A stretch of 53,913 bases of DNA from Candidatus Sumerlaeia bacterium (GTDB taxonomy: Bacteria; Sumerlaeota; Sumerlaeia; JADFCW01). Every line of letters starts with the position of its first letter. Within the stretch, counting starts at the first letter, position 1. The notes below the pieces were generated by a model. The model was not told the DNA's origin. It saw only the letters and a program-made list of their open reading frames with translations, and did not search any database. The position numbers were made by a program, and so were the translations under genes. The stretch lies in assembly GCA_026415575.1 (NCBI GenBank), contig JAOAGV010000021.1, positions 1-53,913 on the forward strand, given 5' to 3'. Positions 17,362 through 30,262 of the stretch are shown piece after piece.

Positions 17362-18387
17362 TTATTGTGACTGCCCGCAGGGCGTTCCCAAGCAGGCCAA
17401 CTCGATGCCGGCTTCGGCAAACAGCCGCCGGGTCGTTAGGTCCATCGCATAGGCCTCGCGATAGACCACGCGCGCAATGCCCGCGTTGATGATGGACTTG
17501 GCGCAATAGGAACACGGGCAAAAGGTCGTATAGAGCGTTGCGCCCTGAATGCTGATGCCGTTGCAGGCGGCCTGCACGATGGCGTTTTCCTCGGCGTGGA
17601 CGCAGAGGCATTCGTCAAGACGCGTGCCCGATTCGGCCATCCCCCAGCAGCGGGGACAGCCACCCTCGTTGCAGTTTTTGATCCCTTTGGGCGTGCCGTT
17701 GTAACCGGTGGAGACAATCTGGCGGTTGCAGACAATGACGGCGCCGACGTGGCGGCTGAGGCAGTTGGAGCGCGAGGCGGCCACGCGCGCGACATTCATG
17801 AAGTATTCATCCCACGAGGGGCGGGGCGGCTGGCGGTGAATGAGGATTTCGCGCAGGGCCTTGTCAATTCGGGCGTGAAACGTATCGAGCGAGCCGTCGT
17901 TGCGCAGGACCATGTCGGCCTCCTCCCGGCAAAGGGCCAGTTGCTGGGCGTCGGGGTTTTCGCCGGCCATCTGGCGTTTTTCGGCGGCTACGAACTCTTC
18001 GAAGGTCGGCAGATTGTCGCCGGGCCGCGCCCGCGCCACCGAGCGTTCATAGCGAACGCGCCGCGGAGCATCCACGAAGAGCAGGAGGAAATCGCGCCGC
18101 AGCCGCAACGTGACCACCTCGGCCGGGTGGCGGATCGAGGTCACCACCCAGCGGGAATAGTCATTCATGCGCTGGAGGGCGCGGACGGCCAGAATCCCCG
18201 CGCCATAGCGCCGGCGCAGTTCATTGCCCACGTCGGTCAGCCGCTCGAGCGTCACCGCCTGACCGCGCGAAGCGATTTCCTCGCGGATCATATCCGAGAG
18301 CGAAATGTGGGCAAATCCCTTCTGCATCAAGTAGTGGGCCAGTGAATCTTTGCCTGCGCAAAAAAAACCTGTCACGCCCAGTATCAT
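17362..18387 (-). CDS. Two-domain dCMP deaminase (P-loop kinase-like domain plus deaminase)
   Basis: 341 residues. Residues 1-180 are a P-loop domain resembling dephospho-CoA/nucleotide kinases: GVTGFFCAGKDS at 5-16, ending in Asp where active kinases have Ser or Thr. Residues 188-335 are a zinc-dependent deoxycytidylate deaminase with HAEEN (zinc His264, catalytic Glu266) and PCSYC (zinc Cys292, Cys295). A second cysteine cluster CNEGGCPRC at 239-247 is typical of dCMP deaminases. Deamination of dCMP gives dUMP for thymidylate synthesis. The architecture and much of the deaminase sequence (PSWDEYFM, NGTPKGIKNCNEGGCPRC) recall yeast Dcd1. It stands alone, convergent with rpmA. Confidence 0.88.
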   Translation of the reverse strand: MILGVTGFFCAGKDSLAHYLMQKGFAHISLSDMIREEIASRGQAVTLERLTDVGNELRRRYGAGILAVRALQRMNDYSRWVVTSIRHPAEVVTLRLRRDFLLLFVDAPRRVRYERSVARARPGDNLPTFEEFVAAEKRQMAGENPDAQQLALCREEADMVLRNDGSLDTFHARIDKALREILIHRQPPRPSWDEYFMNVARVAASRSNCLSRHVGAVIVCNRQIVSTGYNGTPKGIKNCNEGGCPRCWGMAESGTRLDECLCVHAEENAIVQAACNGISIQGATLYTTFCPCSYCAKSIINAGIARVVYREAYAMDLTTRRLFAEAGIELACLGTPCGQSQ

Positions 18388-19372: not shown

Positions 19373-22300
19373 TTATGTTGCGAATTCCCCGCCGTTGTCC
19401 CGCGTGACAAAAATGTAGGCGTCTTCGAGCGAAGGCTCGATGGGCATGGCGCCGGCCAGATCGCACCTGTCGGCAATAAAGCGATAGAGTACGCGATCGG
19501 GTCCGGCGGCTTTTTTGTGGAGGAGACTGTGGCGGCGGGCGATGTCCGGCTCGGCGTCCAAAGTTCCGGCCACTTCCCAGATGCGGCCTCGCGCCAGAGC
19601 AATCAATCCGGCCGGCGTGCCGTCAAAGACGATGCGCCCGTGATTGAGGACGGCCAGCCGCCGGCAACTGCTCGAAATATCATCTATGATGTGTGTGGAA
19701 AGAATCACGATGCGGTCTTGGGCCAGTTGGGAGAGCAGCACGCGGAATTTGACGCGCTCGATGGGGTCGAGACCGGCGGTCGGTTCGTCCACAATAATCA
19801 CGCGCGGCAGCGTCAGCAGGAGACGGGCGATGCCGAGCCGTCGGGCCATGCCGCCGGAGAAGGTGCCGACGCGCTCGTTGGCGACAGGGGCGAGGCCGAC
19901 TTGCTCGAGCACGGCAGCGATGTTGCGCTCGCGGGCAGCGCGGTCGCGAATGCCGAGGATGAGACTATAGTAGTCCAAATACTGGCGGGCGGTCAGTTGA
20001 CCGTGCAGACCGAACGATTGGGGCAGATAGCCGATTTGTGCGCGCGCCTCGCGGTCCTGACGGGCCATGTCGTAGCCGTTGATCTCGATATAGCCGCAGG
20101 TGGGCCGGATCAGACCGGTCATTGCGTGAAGCAGTGTGGTCTTGCCTGCGCCGTTGGGGCCGAGCAAGCCAAACATCCCTTTTTCAATAAACAAGTCCAC
20201 GTTGCGAAGCGCCTCGACGCCGTCGGGCGGCCGTGCGCCGTATTTGTAGCGGCGGGAAGGAATGGCGTTCAGCACGAGGGTGGGTTTGCGAACGGGATAG
20301 ATCATGCGCACGTGGCGGACGAGAACGCCGAGTGGCGCGGATGCCGCGTCGGGCGGCTGTGGGGAAAGATTGGTTGGCTCGGCACTCTCGGAAGGCGCGG
20401 AATCGGTGCTGCGGTGCATGACGACGTCGAAGGTGGGCGCCGCAAAGAGCGGCCCGCCGGCGGGGGCCAGTTCCAGACGTTTGGCGCGCATACGGGCCGG
20501 ACGGAGGAAATAGAAAATCCACCGCCATCGCCAGAGGCGGAGCCCGATGCGCTTGAGAAAATCGAGGGCATCCTCGATGTTCATCAGCATGGCGGGGATC
20601 ACAATCAGGGTCAGGAGAGTCGAGACGCAGAGGCCGCTGATAATGACAACGGCCAGTCCGGCCCAGTTGATCTGTTCGTTGCTGCGAAAGGCCATGGGCG
20701 CCAGCCCCAGCGTAGTGGTCAGGGCGGTCATCAGAATGGGGCGTAAACGGGCACGACAGGCGACAACGATGGCCGCGGTGCGGCGATAGCCGCGTTCGCG
20801 ACGCAGCATTGAAATGAAATCCATCATCACGATGCCGTTATTGACCACTATGCCGGTGAGAATAACCATGCCGAGCATGGCCAGTTCATCAAACCGTGTG
20901 CCGGTCAGAACCAACGCCCACAGCACGCCAACGGCGGCGAGGGGAAATGACAGCATGATGACAAAGGGCGACAGGAGCGATTCAAAAACCGACGCCATAA
21001 CCATGTAAATCAGGATGGCAATAATGTAAAGCATCCAAAGCAGTTGCTGTTCGTTTTCGCGGATGCGTTTGCTTTCCCCCTGAATCTCGGCTTTGAAGCC
21101 GGCCGGCAAGCGGGAATTCTGGATCAAAGTTGCCACGGCCTCTTCGACCAGATTGCGGTTGACGCCGCGCTCAAAGGAATAAATCAAGCGGTTGGCAAAT
21201 TGCAGGTTGTCGCGGTGCAGGTGGTCCACGCCGGAGGTTTTTCGAAAATGGCCGACTTCGGACAGGGGGACACGGCTGCCCGAAGGCAGGAGAATCTCCA
21301 TGGAGCGGACCTCGCTGAGGGGCCGCGCCGTCTCCTGCTCTTGGATGACATTGCTTTGGCCGAGCCGTCCCATGCGAAGGAGAACATCAATGCGGCGGTC
21401 GCCGCGTTCGAGCGTCAGCTGGGAAAACTGACCGCTGCGTTGCGAAGTTTCGAAATAGGAGGAGAGGTCGGCGGCGGTGAGATCGAACTGGGCGGCGCGG
21501 TTGCGGTCGAGCACATAGTGGATTTCTGGTTCACCCTCGAACCCGTGGATCTCCACGCGCGAAATGCCGGGGATCAGTTCCAACTGCCGGGCCATCGCAA
21601 CGGTGACCCATTCCATTTCCTCCCAATGGGAGCCATAGATCGTAATCAGACCGCCTTCCGAGTATGACATATACGAGCGGCGGGAGCGGCTGGTGCCCTC
21701 GATGTTGAAGGGGCGGAGACTGACGAGGGCGCCGGGAACATCGCCGATGACGCTTAGCACGCTCTCACGCACTTCCTGCAGGGTGCGTTTGCGCTGTTTT
21801 TGGGGCACCAGAGTAACATAGACGGTGGCGTCCTCGGCGGGATGGCCAAAGCTGCGGGTCTTTTCGAGTTCCGGAATTTTACGGAGTCGTTTTTCCACCT
21901 CATCCAGCGCCTGCACCAGTTGCTGGCGGGTCGAGCCGCGCGGCACTTGGACGAAAATGGGAAAACTATTGCCCTCGCTGTCCTGCCGCATAGCGCTGCG
22001 GTTGATGCGCGGCAGGCAAGTATAGGTGGTCAGCCAGACGACCAGAATCATGAGCAACAGAAGCCGGACACGATGGCGGAGCGCTGTGCGCAACGCCATC
22101 ATATAGGCCTCGCGGTAAATGCGCCGCGGCCGGCTGAGAAAGGCCGGCCAGTAGGGATGATACCGGCGAAGCCAGACGCCCAGCCTCGCAAGCAGGCGCC
22201 GCCACCGGCCCTGTTTTGCCGAAGTTTTCTCGCGGGCAACCAGAATACGCGACGTCGCCATGGGCACCAAAGTCAGGGCTACGGCCAAGGATACAATGAT

Positions 22301-23707
22301 AGGAAAACAGATGGCGAGCGCGCCTTCGCGAAACATCAGACTCATTTCGCCTTCGAGAAACAGAATCGGTGCAAATACGACCACATTGGTCATGGTGGTG
22401 GCCAGAAGGGCGCGCCAGACTTCCTCGGTTCCGCGCTGGGCGGCTTCGAGACCATGGCGTGTACGCTCGAAGTGGCGGAAGATGTTTTCGAGCACCACGA
22501 TCGCACTGTCGAGCAGCATGCCGATGCCAAGAGCCAGCCCGACCAGCGTGATGATGTTGAGCGAAAGGCCACCGAAATACATGAGATTGAACGTCGTTAC
22601 CACTGAGATGGGAATGGCGGTGAAGACAATGGCGGCCATGCGCAAATTGCGGACAAACAACATGAGGACCACCATGGCAAGGAGGGCCCCGACGATGGCC
22701 AGATTGCGGACTTCGACGATAATCTCCTCAATGGTCTTCGCCGTATCGTCCACGATGGTGATCTTGTAGCCCGGCGGCAGGGAGGCCTCCATTTCTTTCA
22801 GGGCAGCGCGGACCTTGACGGCAAGGCGCAACGGATTGGCGCTGGCGTCCTTGCGCAGCACCAACCCGACGGTATTCAGGCCGTCCACACGTGACACGTA
22901 TTCGGACAGCCGCTGATTGCGATAGACCGTAGCGATGTCATTCAAGCGGAGTATGCCGCGGTCGTCCACAGGCAGACGTTGCAGGTCCTGTTCATTGGAG
23001 ATGACTTCGTCGAGCACAAGGGCAAAATCCTCGTGGGCGTCGCGGATGCGGCCCAAAGTCATCTTGCCGCCGGCGGCTGAGCGAATGCGCGACAGAACAC
23101 GGGGAAGGCCGAGACCCTGCGCAACCAGTCGATCGCGCTGAAACACCACGTCCACGCTGTCGCGCGAATGACCGCCGAGGCTGACTTCGGCAATGCCGTC
23201 AATGGCCTCGAGTTGCGGTTTGAGCTGGTCTTCGGCAATCTGGCGGAGAATGTCGGTGTCTTCGCGACCGGCAACGCTGATCCACATGAAGAAGCTCAGC
23301 ATTTGCTCGGTGCCGTACGAACGGAGGCTAATGTAACTGCCGCGACGGGGAAGCGTCATGCGGAATGCCGTGAGTTTGTCCTGCAGATTGAGCGTGGCAA
23401 ACCGCATATCGGTGCCGAAATCAAACAGAATTTCGATGCGGGAGAAACCGGCGAACGTGGTGGAATTGATCTCGCGCACGCGGGGCGTCGCCGCAACTAT
23501 CCCTTCGATCGGCTTGGTCAGGCGATCCACCGTATCGGAGACCGACAGACCCTCGTAGCGTGCGTAGATGCTGGCTCCGGGCAATGCCACATTGGGAAGC
23601 AGCTGCACGGGCAGTTCATAGTAGGAGACAACGCCCAGCAATACCAGCGCGATGAAGAACATCGTCGTGGTCACGGGGCGATGGATGGCGAGGCGGGAAA
23701 TAATCAT
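19373..23707 (-). CDS. RND-family exporter fused to an ABC-type ATPase
   Basis: 1444 residues in one uninterrupted frame. Residues 1 to about 1050 are a complete RND inner-membrane exporter (AcrB/CzcA class): N-terminal MIISRLAIHRPVTTTMFFIA, two periplasmic porter halves, and TM4 MLLDSAIVVLENI, which keeps one of the two proton-relay aspartates. After a 60-70-residue Pro/Ser/Ala-rich linker comes an ABC ATPase: Walker A GPNGAGKT (about 1183-1190), Q-loop YLPQSFGL, signature FSGGM (about 1283), Walker B VIIVDEP (about 1303) and switch His (about 1339). Such ATPases pair with ABC-2 permeases, and one is encoded directly upstream. ATG 23707 is preferred over GTG 23725 by family N-terminus. No adaptor or outer-membrane channel gene is adjacent. 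Confidence 0.9.
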   Translation of the reverse strand: MIISRLAIHRPVTTTMFFIALVLLGVVSYYELPVQLLPNVALPGASIYARYEGLSVSDTVDRLTKPIEGIVAATPRVREINSTTFAGFSRIEILFDFGTDMRFATLNLQDKLTAFRMTLPRRGSYISLRSYGTEQMLSFFMWISVAGREDTDILRQIAEDQLKPQLEAIDGIAEVSLGGHSRDSVDVVFQRDRLVAQGLGLPRVLSRIRSAAGGKMTLGRIRDAHEDFALVLDEVISNEQDLQRLPVDDRGILRLNDIATVYRNQRLSEYVSRVDGLNTVGLVLRKDASANPLRLAVKVRAALKEMEASLPPGYKITIVDDTAKTIEEIIVEVRNLAIVGALLAMVVLMLFVRNLRMAAIVFTAIPISVVTTFNLMYFGGLSLNIITLVGLALGIGMLLDSAIVVLENIFRHFERTRHGLEAAQRGTEEVWRALLATTMTNVVVFAPILFLEGEMSLMFREGALAICFPIIVSLAVALTLVPMATSRILVAREKTSAKQGRWRRLLARLGVWLRRYHPYWPAFLSRPRRIYREAYMMALRTALRHRVRLLLLMILVVWLTTYTCLPRINRSAMRQDSEGNSFPIFVQVPRGSTRQQLVQALDEVEKRLRKIPELEKTRSFGHPAEDATVYVTLVPQKQRKRTLQEVRESVLSVIGDVPGALVSLRPFNIEGTSRSRRSYMSYSEGGLITIYGSHWEEMEWVTVAMARQLELIPGISRVEIHGFEGEPEIHYVLDRNRAAQFDLTAADLSSYFETSQRSGQFSQLTLERGDRRIDVLLRMGRLGQSNVIQEQETARPLSEVRSMEILLPSGSRVPLSEVGHFRKTSGVDHLHRDNLQFANRLIYSFERGVNRNLVEEAVATLIQNSRLPAGFKAEIQGESKRIRENEQQLLWMLYIIAILIYMVMASVFESLLSPFVIMLSFPLAAVGVLWALVLTGTRFDELAMLGMVILTGIVVNNGIVMMDFISMLRRERGYRRTAAIVVACRARLRPILMTALTTTLGLAPMAFRSNEQINWAGLAVVIISGLCVSTLLTLIVIPAMLMNIEDALDFLKRIGLRLWRWRWIFYFLRPARMRAKRLELAPAGGPLFAAPTFDVVMHRSTDSAPSESAEPTNLSPQPPDAASAPLGVLVRHVRMIYPVRKPTLVLNAIPSRRYKYGARPPDGVEALRNVDLFIEKGMFGLLGPNGAGKTTLLHAMTGLIRPTCGYIEINGYDMARQDREARAQIGYLPQSFGLHGQLTARQYLDYYSLILGIRDRAARERNIAAVLEQVGLAPVANERVGTFSGGMARRLGIARLLLTLPRVIIVDEPTAGLDPIERVKFRVLLSQLAQDRIVILSTHIIDDISSSCRRLAVLNHGRIVFDGTPAGLIALARGRIWEVAGTLDAEPDIARRHSLLHKKAAGPDRVLYRFIADRCDLAGAMPIEPSLEDAYIFVTRDNGGEFAT

Positions 23708-23764
23708 GCGCTGGCAACTGCACACACGTTCGGGCGCCGACGCGGCGTCCGTATGGGCATCTGT

Positions 23765-26452
23765 CTATTCGAGCACAAGAACGCGCCGCCACGCCGGACC
23801 GCGGCTGCGCGTTTCGGCTTGCACTGTCATTTCTTGCGTAATCCAGTTTTGCGGGTCAACATAAACCGCCTCCGGCCGGTCGGGCACATGAAGGGTGACC
23901 GTCTGCGAAGTGCCGCTGTCCAGCCAGATCGGGCGCGTGATCCGGTCGCGCTCGGTTTGAAGCAGAACAGGCACGGGCATTTTCCCCTGCCCTTGATTGG
24001 CGACGACAAAAGTCACGTCGTATTCGATGTCACGGGTGCGCTTGTTTTCGACCATGCGGGCATAGGCGCTCGTAACGACATAGCGGGGGGTGCCCTTGCC
24101 GTGGAGCCAGTGGTCGAAAAACCAATCCAGCGGCGCGCCGTAGAAGCGTTCGGCCAGTTGCCGCAGATCGGCCTCGCGGACGGTACGGTCGGCGAATTCA
24201 GCAATCAATGCGCGGAGAAACGCCGCGAATTTATCATCCTCGAGCAGATAGTGCAGCATCCGCCAAATGTGAACGGCCTGCAAAGGCTCAAATGCCGGCA
24301 TGGCCATGCGGGCGACAAGGGGGGTATCGAACAGGGCGCGCCGTGCCGGATCGAGCAGCGAACGCTCGGAGCGCGACGTGCGGGTCTGAAACAGGCTGCG
24401 CGAGCGGCGGGCCAGAGGACCGATCTCGCTGCGCTGATAGGTTGAGATCAGATAGGAATACAAGGCTTCGCGCAACGGCCCGATGGACCGTTCAAAACGA
24501 AGCGATTCGCGCAGGATTCGAGCCGCCAGCGCCGACGACAACCGTGTCTGATAGACATCCAGAGCCGCGATGCCTTCGTACTTCCGCTGGTCGAACGCCG
24601 GTCGGAAACGCTGCAGGCGGGTCAAATCGCTCCAGGCAAGTGTTCCGGACGGCAGGCCGCGTTCCTCGCTGCGGACGCCGAATGGGGCTTCCAACAACGT
24701 GACCTGCGAGCCGCGGGGCGGCCCCAGAATTTGCCCCCACCGCTCGAGGGTTTCCGACAGTTCGCGCAGGGCGAATTCAAGCGTGTCGCGGTGGCTTCGA
24801 AAACAATACACGCGCAAGGGCAGCGCACCAAATTGCCGTTCGATCATTTCATAGGGACCGGCCCACAGGGTGAAATCGCTGCGGGCCCACGACGAGCGAA
24901 AGACCGGAACGCTCGTTCCATCGGCACGCCGGTCGGCGACCACCGTGCCGTCGGGCGACACCCATTCGAGGCCGGCGATGGGTGCCAGCTCGATGGCACA
25001 GGTGAACGAGCGCGGCGCCTGAGAGAAGTCCACGCCGCGTTTGCCGCGCGTCAGCGCAACGGTTCGCGGCAGAGCCGATGCGCCTACACGGACGAACCGC
25101 CGGCCGCCGAGATCCTCGAACGGCTCGCTGCGCACATCATAGAGGCCGGCCGAGGTCGGGCGGTCGCCGATGCGCACTTGCATGGGATGTCCGCTATAGA
25201 CCAATCGCACGGAGGTTGTGGATTCGACCGTCAGCGATGAAAGAAAATCCACTGCTGCCAAATTCGCCCACTGCCGCAAGCGCAATGGCTCGCCTCCGGC
25301 GCTTTCGACGCGCTCGATCTCCATGCCGAAGGGCAGGCTGAAGACCACGCACGAGACGGCAGTACGGGTGGTATTGGCGACCTCCACGCGAAGGTCGCAG
25401 GCAATCCGGCCGGAGCGCGAAACGTTCAACGAACCGGCAATATGACGGATGGGAAGGCCGGCGGCGACGGGGCCGTTGTGGCGAAGTTCCTCGCGCAGTT
25501 CGCGCGCCCACCGTTGCTCCTGGCCGGAGCGCGTGCGATGCTCCCACGCGGCGCGACCGGCCAAGGCAGCAGCGAAAGCGAGCGCGACCACAAGCGCCAG
25601 ATGAACGGAGGGTCCGGCTTGGCGGTCGGGCAGGAGGTCCGTGAAAAAGCGCCGGAAAGTCGGCATGTCCGTCCAGCGATGGATTTTGCCCGCCACACTT
25701 CGCTGTGGCTCGCGTCGGCGGAAATGATAGCCGGCCAGAACAAGAAAGGCCAGACACAGGGCAAGAGTGTTGAGAAATCCGGACACGTAAAGCGGAGCGC
25801 TGAGATCGCGGCCGATCTCCGGGATGTACGGTTGTTGGAGCGGCTCGATCAACCGTTCACTCCAACCCAGAAATGGCCAACCCAGTTTGCCTGTGTAATG
25901 ATAGAGCAAGCCGGCAAGCAAGATCGCTGCACCGTAGGCAAGAATGTTGTGTTTGAACACAACGCGGACCCAAACGACCAGCGCGGCTAAACCCATGGCC
26001 AAGGGCGCCGCCCCCAAGGCCCACAGCCAGATAAACGGCTGCGGGCAAAGGAGGGGGTCAAAGTAGATTCGGCCGACGACAAAACGGGTGGTGAGGGTCG
26101 CAGCTGCCAAGAAAGCCGTCACAGCCGCGACGGCGGCCCAGCAGCCCAAAAGATAGCTGAACGTTGAAAAGGGTTTTGTGAAAAGGATGGGGTGTATTCC
26201 TGTAGCGCGCACGCGGCTGATGCTGTCCACCGCAACGATGATTACGATCGGAACAAACAGCCGCCACAGCCAGATTGTTTTTTCGAGGTAGCCGCTGATC
26301 AGATCATCGAGCTTTTCGCGCGATGGATCGGGCGCAAGAAGAACGGCCCATGGGACGGCGGCGGCCATCAGAAGTGCCGCGCAAAGCCACAGCCGCCAGC
26401 TCTTGACGTGCATCCAAAGTTCGTAGCGGAAGAAAGCGAAAAACCTGCGCAC
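23765..26452 (-). CDS. ABC-2 type permease with degenerate M1-peptidase-like domain
   Basis: 895 residues. The first 250 form an ABC-2 permease half (MRRFFAFFRYELWMHVKSWR, then about six hydrophobic segments). Residues 300-895 resemble periplasmic M1 aminopeptidase domains seen in Bacteroidetes-type ABC permeases. The C-terminal FYGAPLDWFFDHWLHGKGTP block is characteristic. The zinc motif HExxH and its distal Glu are not present; the expected region reads QTRLSSALAARILRESL. It therefore looks like a non-catalytic peptidase relative. It starts at GTG 26452 with AGGA eight bases upstream, and ends 57 bases before the ATPase-bearing RND fusion, its probable partner. Confidence 0.8.
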   Translation of the reverse strand: MRRFFAFFRYELWMHVKSWRLWLCAALLMAAAVPWAVLLAPDPSREKLDDLISGYLEKTIWLWRLFVPIVIIVAVDSISRVRATGIHPILFTKPFSTFSYLLGCWAAVAAVTAFLAAATLTTRFVVGRIYFDPLLCPQPFIWLWALGAAPLAMGLAALVVWVRVVFKHNILAYGAAILLAGLLYHYTGKLGWPFLGWSERLIEPLQQPYIPEIGRDLSAPLYVSGFLNTLALCLAFLVLAGYHFRRREPQRSVAGKIHRWTDMPTFRRFFTDLLPDRQAGPSVHLALVVALAFAAALAGRAAWEHRTRSGQEQRWARELREELRHNGPVAAGLPIRHIAGSLNVSRSGRIACDLRVEVANTTRTAVSCVVFSLPFGMEIERVESAGGEPLRLRQWANLAAVDFLSSLTVESTTSVRLVYSGHPMQVRIGDRPTSAGLYDVRSEPFEDLGGRRFVRVGASALPRTVALTRGKRGVDFSQAPRSFTCAIELAPIAGLEWVSPDGTVVADRRADGTSVPVFRSSWARSDFTLWAGPYEMIERQFGALPLRVYCFRSHRDTLEFALRELSETLERWGQILGPPRGSQVTLLEAPFGVRSEERGLPSGTLAWSDLTRLQRFRPAFDQRKYEGIAALDVYQTRLSSALAARILRESLRFERSIGPLREALYSYLISTYQRSEIGPLARRSRSLFQTRTSRSERSLLDPARRALFDTPLVARMAMPAFEPLQAVHIWRMLHYLLEDDKFAAFLRALIAEFADRTVREADLRQLAERFYGAPLDWFFDHWLHGKGTPRYVVTSAYARMVENKRTRDIEYDVTFVVANQGQGKMPVPVLLQTERDRITRPIWLDSGTSQTVTLHVPDRPEAVYVDPQNWITQEMTVQAETRSRGPAWRRVLVLE

Positions 26453-26712: not shown

Positions 26713-28251
26713 TTATCGCGTGCGGCGTTCGACAGTGGCAATGAATTCTTGCTGGTCGGCGATTTCGGGTTCCGGCGGATGGGCGATGATCTTGCCGTTT
26801 TCGTCGGCGAGAAAATCATCGGCAGACCCCATAATCTTGTCGGGGCCGGCAGTTCGAATGCGTCGCAGGACCGGTTCATATAGGATGGGGCCGCCAAAAC
26901 CGTCGGTAAAATCCGTTTTGCCGATGATGCGGCGCTTAATCAGGTCGTCGAGGGTTTTGATGTCGCGTCCCGTTCGCACCATGTATTCCTTCACGGCGGC
27001 AGACAAGTAGTCCAGTTTGACCAAAGTTTCCTGATAGCGATTGTAGTAAAGCTCTTCGGGGCTGAGGACTTTGCCGGCGCCGAGATGGGCCAAGAGTGCG
27101 CGGATTATGCCGCGCAAGCCACCGCCAGCGGTTTCGGCCCCGCGCGGGCTGAGCATATACGCCATGGCCCCCGCACCCACGATCAGAAGCAGCGACAGGA
27201 TTAGGATGCGGCGGCGGGTCATGCGCGCGTCATAGGCTTCGTAGAGAGAGCCTGCGCCGGAGATCATCTTGCCTTCTGCGGCATGGGGTTCGGCACCTGA
27301 TTCGGCAGATGCGGCGGCCTCGGCTGCTGCAGCCGCGGCGGCCTTGGCCGCTTCTGCCGCAGCCACTTCGCGGGCGTGCGCCTCTTCGGCGAGAATGCGC
27401 TCGCGATGCACCCGTGCCACACGGGCCTGACGTAGGTCCTGCAGTAGTAGATCGTAGTCCTGATAGCGGTCAGCCGGGTCTTTGGCCATGGCCTTCTGGA
27501 CAATTTCGCAAACGTCGGCGGGGATGGCGGGATTGATAAGATAGGGCGGAGGCAGCGGGCTGTTGACGTGCTGCATCATGACGGCGGCGGGGGTTTCGCC
27601 ATCGAACGGGGGCCGGCCGGTCAGCAAGTGGTAGAAGGTTGCACCGAGTGAGTAGATGTCGGACCGCCAGTCGGCTGTCCGGCCCAGAGCAACTTCCGGG
27701 GCCATGTATCGTGGCGTGCCCATGAGGCGTCCGGCCACACTTTTGTAGGCGTCCTCGCGAATGACTTTGGCCAGGCCGAAATCCACAACTTTGAGCGTCC
27801 AGTCCTGCGTAACCATCAGGTTGGCCGGCTTGATGTCGCGGTGGATAATGTTGCGGTGGAAGGCGGCATCGAGTCCTTGGGCGGCCTGCATGATCAGCTC
27901 AATCTGTTGGGAAAAGGGCAGTTCGATCTTGTCGTCAATAATTTCCTTGAGGCTGCGGCCGTCCACAAACTCCATAATGAAATAGGGCAGACCGTCCCAC
28001 GTAACACCGGTTTCGAGGATTTGCGCGATGTTGGGGTGATTGAGTTCGGTCAACGCGCGCGATTCCTGTTCAAAGCGGGCAAGGGCTTCGGGGTCTTTGA
28101 TAAATTCGGGCGAGAGCAACTTGATTGCCGCGACGCGATTGAGTTCCTCGTCAATGCCTTTGACCACTTCGCTGGTGGCACCGCGGGCCAGGACGCCCAC
28201 GATGCGATAAGGGCCGATACGGTCGCCGTCGGTTACGGCTGGGTCCGCCAT
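26713..28251 (-). CDS. Membrane Ser/Thr protein kinase with pseudopilin-like C-terminal domain
   Basis: 512 residues from ATG 28251; an upstream in-frame GTG would add a low-similarity 33 residues. The Hanks-type kinase spans about 13-275: catalytic Lys44, HRD 137-139, DFG 157-159, APE 184-186. An Ala/Glu-rich helical stretch follows (281-320), then one membrane segment (347-366). The extracytoplasmic 400-485 region resembles the C-terminal half of GspG-type major pseudopilins: VKEYMVRTGRDIKTLDDL and then RTAGPDKIMGSADDF, the usual AGPDG..GTADD calcium loop. This suggests sensing or secretion-linked signalling, by inference. It lies 127 bases after the CsgG-like/TPR gene on the same strand. 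Confidence 0.87.
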   Translation of the reverse strand: MADPAVTDGDRIGPYRIVGVLARGATSEVVKGIDEELNRVAAIKLLSPEFIKDPEALARFEQESRALTELNHPNIAQILETGVTWDGLPYFIMEFVDGRSLKEIIDDKIELPFSQQIELIMQAAQGLDAAFHRNIIHRDIKPANLMVTQDWTLKVVDFGLAKVIREDAYKSVAGRLMGTPRYMAPEVALGRTADWRSDIYSLGATFYHLLTGRPPFDGETPAAVMMQHVNSPLPPPYLINPAIPADVCEIVQKAMAKDPADRYQDYDLLLQDLRQARVARVHRERILAEEAHAREVAAAEAAKAAAAAAAEAAASAESGAEPHAAEGKMISGAGSLYEAYDARMTRRRILILSLLLIVGAGAMAYMLSPRGAETAGGGLRGIIRALLAHLGAGKVLSPEELYYNRYQETLVKLDYLSAAVKEYMVRTGRDIKTLDDLIKRRIIGKTDFTDGFGGPILYEPVLRRIRTAGPDKIMGSADDFLADENGKIIAHPPEPEIADQQEFIATVERRTR

Positions 28252-28377
28252 GCGTGTGATCAGAGCGGCTGGCCGCCCTGCCTCCGTTGAGGTGAGCGCC
28301 ACGGGGCAGCGTTGCGCGCGGGGCCAAGGGCCCGGCGAAACGGGATGCACACTCGTCTGGCGCTCAACGTAATATGG

Positions 28378-30033
28378 TCATTCGAGTCCTTTCAGACATT
28401 CGCGGGCACGTTTGACGTTTTCTTTTTGCGAGGGTTCGTTTTCTGCCATTTCAATGAATTTCTGAAATTCGGCGCGCGCCCGCGCCTTGTCCACATACAT
28501 ACAGACATGGGCCAAATTGAACTGGGCGTAGAAGTTGTTCGGTTTGATTTTCAGCGCTTCTTCCTGCGCCTCGATCGCCTTTTGATAGTCTTCGAGATAG
28601 AAGTAGGCGGAACCCATAACGGTCAGCGCATCGGCGTGCCGGGGGTCGCGTTTGAGAACTTCGGCACATTGGGCCACCGCGCTTTTCAAGTCCTTGTTGA
28701 AATAGTAGGCGCGCGCCAACTCGTAGCGATAGGAGATGTTTTCCGGGTCCAGTTCGACGACAGAGATCAGCAGTTTGAGGCCTTCAGGTTTGTCTTCGCC
28801 GATTTTTCGGGCCTGGCTGTAAAGCTCTTTGGCGCGCATGATGGGCGACCGTGGATCGCCTTTGGGTTCAGGTGTGGTCTTGGCGGTCTTGGCCGTTTCT
28901 TTTGAGTCCGGTGTCGGTGTTGGTTTAGGTGTTGGCGTCGGCGTCGGGGTCGGCGTTGGTGTCGGAGTCGGTGTTGGCGTTGGTGTTGGAACTGGCGTGG
29001 GCGTCGGTGTTGGCGTTGGAACTGGAGTAGGAGTCGGGGTTGGTGTTGGTTTGGGCGTTGGGATCGGAGTCGGCGTTGGTGTTGGCGTGGGAGTTGGCAT
29101 CGGTGTCGGGGTTGGTGCAGGGGTCGGAGTTGGCACTGGCGTCGGCATGGGCGTCGGCACGGGAGTGGGTGCCGGCGTTGGCATCGGGGTCGGCGTTGGC
29201 GTGGGTGTCGGCAAAAGAGGCTTCGGAATGCCAGCTGTTGCCTCTTTGGTTGGCTTGGGAACGGGTGTTGCCAGCGGCACGACATCCATTGGCAAAGCGG
29301 CTTTGGGCGTGGGAACCGGCGACACGGTCGGTTGAACCAAGGAGGTTGCAACTGGTGTGGCCACAGGCGAGGTCGTCGGGAATACCGGCGGGGTGGCCAT
29401 GGCAGTAACAAGCGCGGGCGTCGGGGTCGGCTCGGGCGGCGCCGGCTGCAAGGTCAGCAATACGTCAGCCACACGATCCAGGTTTGCCAGCATTTGGTCC
29501 AGCCCTTTTTCAAACACCCAAGTTCGGCTGATGATGGTTTTTCCCTCGCGCACGGAAAACACGGAAGCATCGAGCGCATAGACCCCGCCCGACCGGGCGA
29601 CATGCCCGAAGACGAGATAGTCCACTCCCAAGGCGCGGGCAATGCGTCCGTAACTGGTGGGCTGACCGCGCGTCATGCCGGGAAGCAGGCCCCATTGCTG
29701 GAGAGAAATTCGGGCTGCGCCCCGAAGCATCAGGGTAACTTTTTTGCGTTGATAGAGGCCATCCCAAAGCGCGCGACAGACAGCCTCGACCTCATTGACC
29801 GGCACTTCCTCGCTGGTAAAATCCAGCATCGCCACGAGAGGCTTGGGCGCGGCCGGACGCGGCGGAGCTACGGTCGGTATGGGTTTGGCTTCGATCGTGA
29901 TGGTGCGGGTTATGGGTTCAAACGAATCGGGCGGTGGGGGGCTTGCCGCTCCCGCCAGCACCCAGAACAATCCGCCATGGATAGCGCAACGAATTACCGC
30001 ACGGCTCAACGGCATCGTGTTGTGCAATTTCAT
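28378..30033 (-). CDS. Exported CsgG-like/TPR protein with long Pro-Thr linker
   Basis: 551 residues. An N-terminal hydrophobic export signal ends near the SPPPPD segment. Residues 60-190 resemble the CsgG/TolB-N-like fold of envelope lipoproteins ([31 protein letters not shown]). About 100 residues of nearly pure TP/PTP repeats follow. The last 165 residues contain three or four TPR units ([53 protein letters not shown]). A periplasmic scaffold crossing the cell-wall layer would fit. ATG 30033 has GAGGTG six bases upstream; GTG 30042 is an alternative. No known orthologue is recognised. Confidence 0.8.
28911..29212 (-). repeat. Tandem hexanucleotide array encoding the Pro-Thr linker
   Basis: About 300 bases of six-base units of the form CCNACN on the coding strand, read as GGNGTN on the plus strand, encoding TPTPTP with occasional Ala, Val, Met, Lys or Ile. 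Third-base variation is high, so the array has diverged while the amino-acid pattern is kept. Length variation between strains is likely. Confidence 0.9.
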
Positions 30034-30262
30034 CTGCTTCACCTCAACCTTGCAAGAAGGACCCTAACGTGCGGACTCGCCTGTCTTTGCTCACAACGCC
30101 CTTCAATACCCTTCAAAACAGTGATAAGGCTAACCCGCTTGCATAACCAATGCAACCAAAAACACCTTTGCGTATCGGACGGAGCGCCACTGTTCGGTAT
30201 TGAGGCCGGACCGCCGCGTGAGAACGGGTTTCCAACCGCGCTCAACTTGGACTCGAATACCG

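Follow-up and report, generated by a model that had tools for sequence, protein, structure and literature searches.

Resistance-nodulation-division (RND) and ATP-binding cassette (ABC) pumps count as two distinct superfamilies that differ in their source of energy, RND pumps being ion-driven and ABC pumps using ATP. Can the two be parts of one machine? The question is raised by a gene on the minus strand (19373..23707) of contig JAOAGV010000021.1, one of the 255 contigs of a Candidatus Sumerlaeota metagenome-assembled genome; the whole stretch analysed, 53,913 nucleotides long, is referred to as the window. An earlier note on this DNA had claimed that an RND pump and an ABC ATPase are joined here in one polypeptide. 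We found that the fusion is real, with ACR_tran and ABC_tran domains in one open frame. Because the RND part (RND2) and the nucleotide-binding domain (NBD) are covalently joined, their motifs are conserved, their joining appears to have a single origin and the partner genes are conserved, we lean towards the view that the protein would be the subunit that connects the parts of a composite ABC/RND envelope exporter with two energy sources.

The fusion protein and its junction

The open frame extends over 19373-23725 on the minus strand, to which all coordinates of the gene refer, and would encode 1450 aa if started at the GTG at 23725; the ATG at 23707, the start also taken in the earlier note, is the likely start and gives a protein of 1444 aa. 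The RND (AcrB-type) permease part (20579..23701; residues 9-1049 in the 1450-aa numbering) matches Pfam ACR_tran with an E value of 4.9e-193 over profile positions 1-1019 of 1021, and is thus a full-length RND domain. It is followed by a linker (20327..20578) without a predicted membrane helix, strand 1 of the NBD with the A-loop (VLVRHVRMIY, 20297..20326, 45 aa ahead of Walker A), a 28-residue insert between the A-loop and NBD strand 2 (20213..20296) and the remainder of the NBD with a C-terminal ABC-2-type tail, EPSLEDAYIF (19376..20212). Accordingly, of the disordered linker described earlier, the linker between the two domains stands, while part of that stretch belongs to the NBD and its insert. 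Residues 1174-1317 match ABC_tran (E 2.8e-30), and the NBD is complete, as had been claimed, with Walker A (GPNGAGKT), Q-loop (YLPQ), signature (FSGGM), Walker B with the catalytic Glu (IIVDEP) and switch His (STH) all intact. Its top NCBIfam matches are drrA (TIGR01188) and gldA (TIGR03522), with scores of 184.8 and 164.8 that lie under the curated cut-offs of 312.45 and 402.6, respectively. By sequence, the NBD belongs to the ABC class that pairs with ABC-2 permeases, in agreement with the earlier assignment. The closest solved sequence to the RND part is MdtB (9lyq), and none of the solved chains listed for the fusion protein spans both halves.

The same-genus relative JADFCW010000092.1 (locus L028) carries a fusion of 1444 codons that is 93% identical to that of the window with zero indels, and neither a stop nor a frameshift occurs at the RND-NBD junction over these 1444 codons in the two sequences. 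The linker is 75% identical between them. The ratio of nonsynonymous to synonymous substitution rates (dN/dS) was 0.05 for the RND part, 0.31 for the linker and 0.06 for the NBD; together with the lack of indels, these values indicate a translated junction on which purifying selection acts. An artefact, in which a misassembly or a missed stop joined two neighbouring genes of this 255-contig metagenome assembly, is ruled out for practical purposes by the absence of indels and by the presence of the same junction in the independent assembly of the relative and in many genomes of other phyla, single-contig genomes included.

Distribution, origin and variation of the fusion

Counts were based on single frames of at least 1400 aa holding an NBD of the fused type, read from tables, and both halves were sequence-checked for 44 distinct fusion proteins. 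About 85 genomes have one frame of sufficient length to hold the fusion. They fall into at least six phylum-level groups, namely Sumerlaeota (13 of 40 genomes, not counting G023, in which the frame is truncated by the contig end), the KSB1 phylum (QNDJ01000017.1; 3 of 6), the phyla of G364 (34 of 82), G188 (7 of 14) and G189 (27 of 64, with the single-contig genomes G518 and G519 among the 27) and a further lineage (G184). Two very long frames, of 2326 aa (G542) and 1790 aa (G503), represent this fusion, extended upstream by a stretch without stop codons. Among the best matches listed from a plasmid collection, only separate RND and ABC genes were seen. The earlier note had suggested a search for the fusion in independent genomes, where many single-frame cases were thus found, and had named two outcomes that would count against it. 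Neither occurred: the junction holds no stop or frameshift, and the relatives, instead of always having separate genes, carry the fusion, with a split form in one KSB1 genome (G063).

Phylogenetic trees were built by quick searches with SH-aLRT support only. The 43 fused RND parts, among which the split protein L167 is counted, group in a single clade (support 100). Its sister clade (100) consists of 29 proteins, designated RND1, and both clades stand apart from other RNDs, AcrB and MdtBC included. Likewise, 44 fused NBDs fall in one clade (SH-aLRT 93) separate from the free ATPases designated ABC1, and the only non-fused entries within it are L106, truncated by a contig end, and the split L167 of KSB1. 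An NBD on contig C78 that was first taken as ABC1 was dropped, as the tree places it elsewhere. The monophyly of both halves suggests that the fusion arose once, the simplest history being one RND duplication and one fusion.

The window protein has the equivalents of the AcrB proton-relay residues D407, R971 and T978 but Ser in place of D408 and Asn in place of K940. All 43 fused RNDs and all 29 RND1 proteins retain D407, R971 and T978 and have Asn or Ser for D408 and Asn for K940, and the identical variant is found in many unfused relatives in the RND tree set. Since D407, R971 and T978 are kept and the two replacements occur in fused and unfused proteins alike, ion coupling of the RND part is possible, with a relay of a variant type; loss of ion coupling as the cause of the fusion is unsupported, the substitutions being shared with unfused relatives.

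Catalytic motifs are kept in the 44 fused NBDs as well as in ABC1, in which there are a few signature variants. The two types differ in the distance from the strand-1/A-loop motif (xIxNLxKxY) to Walker A, which is 22-23 aa in ABC1, 39-69 aa in a short-insert class (the window, other Sumerlaeota and the G188 phylum) and 183-226 aa in a long-insert class (the KSB1, G364 and G189 phyla). Every fused NBD has an insert after the A-loop, and in most phyla this insert, at the site of the 28 residues of the window protein, is about 200 aa long with four predicted membrane helices. Fused proteins with the four-helix insert number 25 and come from several phyla, e.g. L029 (5170-9924), L158 (14074-18822) and L163 (14031-18767). 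In the long class it is preceded by two more predicted helices between the RND part and the NBD, and the basic loops are at positions expected to be cytoplasmic, as judged from hydropathy predictions of topology. The linker between RND and NBD ranges from 87 to 280 aa across lineages and is little conserved. An AlphaFold model of the KSB1 linker and NBD had a mean pLDDT of 54 (no usable alignment), too poor for use.

Partner genes

As the earlier note had pointed out, an ABC-2-type permease (PERM; 23765..26452, minus strand) is encoded directly upstream of the fusion, and this link is conserved across phyla, PERM being encoded in nearly all full operons. It consists of an N-terminal membrane domain with about 6-7 predicted helices and a C-terminal M1-peptidase-like domain, and its profile matches the M1 metalloprotease 6iff of the PDB (E 6e-16) and aminopeptidases N. 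Because none of the 28 family members or fragments has the HExxH zinc motif, the M1-like domain is probably a non-catalytic periplasmic domain. Within the family (e.g. window 23765-26452, L092 4569-7385 and L163 4711-8208), members from other phyla often end in Golvesin_C. The AlphaFold model of the window permease (mean pLDDT 35, no usable alignment) was also too poor for use. PERM was found in 14 of the 15 fusion-bearing Sumerlaeota genomes, the truncated G023 and G034 counted. Four strong matches were found elsewhere in Sumerlaeota, of which two (G017 and G026) carry RND1-PERM-RND2 cut by a contig end within RND2.

Gene orders, read from profiles built on the fusion loci, reveal additional partners that the earlier note did not cover, as it also did not cover the loss of HExxH and the NBD insert: RND1, ABC1, an adaptor and an outer-membrane channel occur in the related operons. 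The order is adaptor - ABC1 - ABC-2 permease - RND1 - PERM - RND2.NBD - outer-membrane factor in the G188 phylum and ABC1 - PERM - outer-membrane factor - adaptor - RND1 - RND2.NBD - U240 in other phyla, with the outer-membrane factor missing from several operons of the latter type. U240, a membrane protein of about 240 aa, shows weak similarity to the small ABC-2 permease, with an hhalign probability of 62% and an E value of 7.5e-5. RND1 lies directly ahead of RND2 in most operons outside Sumerlaeota and is not beside the window gene; the adaptor (HlyD_D23/RND_mfp) and outer-membrane factor (OEP) genes are present in the operons of other phyla and not in the locus of the window. The Sumerlaeota set is split: PERM-fusion was found in G000 and G001 and RND1-PERM-fusion in G006, while G001 has adaptor-ABC1-small permease-RND1 on another contig. 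The genome of the window has RND1 on contig C106, with 88.7% nucleotide identity to that of G001.

Other genes were seen nearby. In the window, the permease gene is directly preceded on its own strand by genes for a Ser/Thr protein kinase and a TPR protein (26713-30042, minus strand); this link was seen in the window alone, the contig of the same-genus relative ending inside PERM. Another minus-strand gene (17362-18387) encodes a single protein in which an N-terminal P-loop (AAA_18-like) domain is combined with a dCMP/cytidine deaminase domain. Elsewhere in the same genome, locus L216 (G000:C182, 4538-10640) encodes an adaptor, an RND and then one 570-aa frame with two NBD matches.

Possible roles and relation to known systems

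That the fusion could tether two transport machines, as suggested previously, is the interpretation that best fits the sequence comparisons. In the form of the composite exporter that we consider most likely, i) RND1 and RND2 would form a heterotrimer, perhaps in a 2:1 ratio as in MdtB2C1, ii) each trimer of this ratio would carry a single NBD, iii) the fused NBD would pair with ABC1 and drive an ABC-2 transporter of the large and small permeases beside the trimer, iv) the ABC part would extract the substrate or bring it to the outer surface of the inner membrane, v) the M1-like domain of PERM, predicted to be periplasmic, would bind the substrate or hand it over, and vi) the RND trimer, adaptor and channel would take it out of the cell. 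A 2:1 trimer with a single NBD pairing with ABC1 would, in this proposal, resolve the mismatch between a trimeric RND and a dimeric NBD. We tentatively propose, at somewhat less than even confidence, that an ion-driven RND heterotrimer and an ATP-driven ABC-2 transporter are one complex through the covalent RND-NBD subunit, which would be a new exporter class with two energy sources and, in most phyla, an NBD itself interrupted at the A-loop by the four-helix insert.

Several observations weigh against a composite exporter. In most Sumerlaeota families the fusion, permease and RND1 are at separate loci, and in G036, which has the fusion, no permease match was obtained at E 1e-12. No free ABC1 was found in the assembly to which the window belongs, although this is likely an assembly gap, since contig C106 begins inside RND1. 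A second-copy locus (L164 7229-16948, G065) has the adaptor, RND1, fusion and U240 but, over the stretch read, neither ABC1 nor PERM, and L207 has no RND1 beside the fusion. In the KSB1 genome G063 (L167, 4998-9733), RND2 and NBD are encoded in two overlapping frames, which may be a natural split, the link then perhaps being dispensable, or a sequencing error or indel.

Alternatively, the NBD could act on the RND itself, with ATP binding or hydrolysis directly gating or powering the RND trimer, and the ABC-2 permease and ABC1 would be a separate transporter of a related substrate. The NBD is indeed fused to RND2 rather than to the permease, which is unlinked in most Sumerlaeota families; moreover, the RND relay lacks K940 and D408, and the NBD of the long class has helices of its own that hold it at the membrane. 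However, the NBD is of the class pairing with ABC-2 permeases (drrA and gldA being best, though under cut-off), nearly all full operons have an ABC-2 permease gene, and the D/N plus N relay, being shared with unfused relatives, is no sign of lost ion coupling, so that we regard this explanation as unlikely. Rather improbable, too, is a fusion serving merely as a device for co-expression or co-localisation of two independent exporters without mechanical or substrate coupling. Neutral fusion of adjacent transporter genes can occur, and both the wide variation of the poorly conserved linker and the separate frames of G063 would agree with it, but the fusion has a single apparent origin, at least six phylum-level groups have kept it and separate halves were almost never seen, the long class has gained conserved membrane segments inside the NBD, and the linker is under purifying selection.

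The composite exporter would resemble several known systems in part. MdtABC and MuxABC share with it two adjacent paralogous RND genes, an adaptor and an outer-membrane channel, and the MdtB2C1 heterotrimer is a precedent for an RND trimer of two paralogues (PMC7015380); the RND1/RND2 clade is, however, separate from MdtB/MdtC, one subunit ends in an ABC NBD, and an ABC-2 permease and a free ATPase are also in the operon. AcrAB-TolC has the RND fold and tripartite partners in common but a single RND and no NBD, and the equivalents of its D408 and K940 are replaced in the present proteins. The DrrAB and GldA ABC-2 exporters share the NBD motifs, the C-terminal tail and an adjoining ABC-2 permease, whereas here the NBD is fused to an RND, interrupted after the A-loop and scores under the family cut-offs. 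From database annotation, a C-terminal M1 aminopeptidase-like domain is known on some ABC-2 permeases; these have the same membrane and M1-like domains, often with a terminal Golvesin_C, and PERM differs from them in lacking HExxH throughout and in its genetic tie to the RND-NBD fusion. MacAB-TolC likewise has an ATP-driven inner-membrane component, an adaptor and a TolC-type channel, but the NBD here is C-terminal on an RND, unlike that of MacB, which according to the accessible part of a review is N-terminal and joined to its own permease (PMC8277102). The same part of that review contained no RND-ABC fusion, nor was one found described in the open-access literature searched, although one may be described in a subscription paper or present as a mere database annotation. 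By sequence, all the modules come from known superfamilies, and their combination has the likeness of a dual-RND tripartite pump and an ABC-2 exporter, being a member of neither by tree or cut-off.

An NBD interrupted by membrane helices would widen the known domain architecture of ABC proteins. An RND-ABC fusion that evolved once and is accompanied by a conserved gene set over several phyla suggests a machine coupling both kinds of pump, and it offers a natural covalent handle on the direct coupling of ABC export at the inner membrane to RND export across the envelope.

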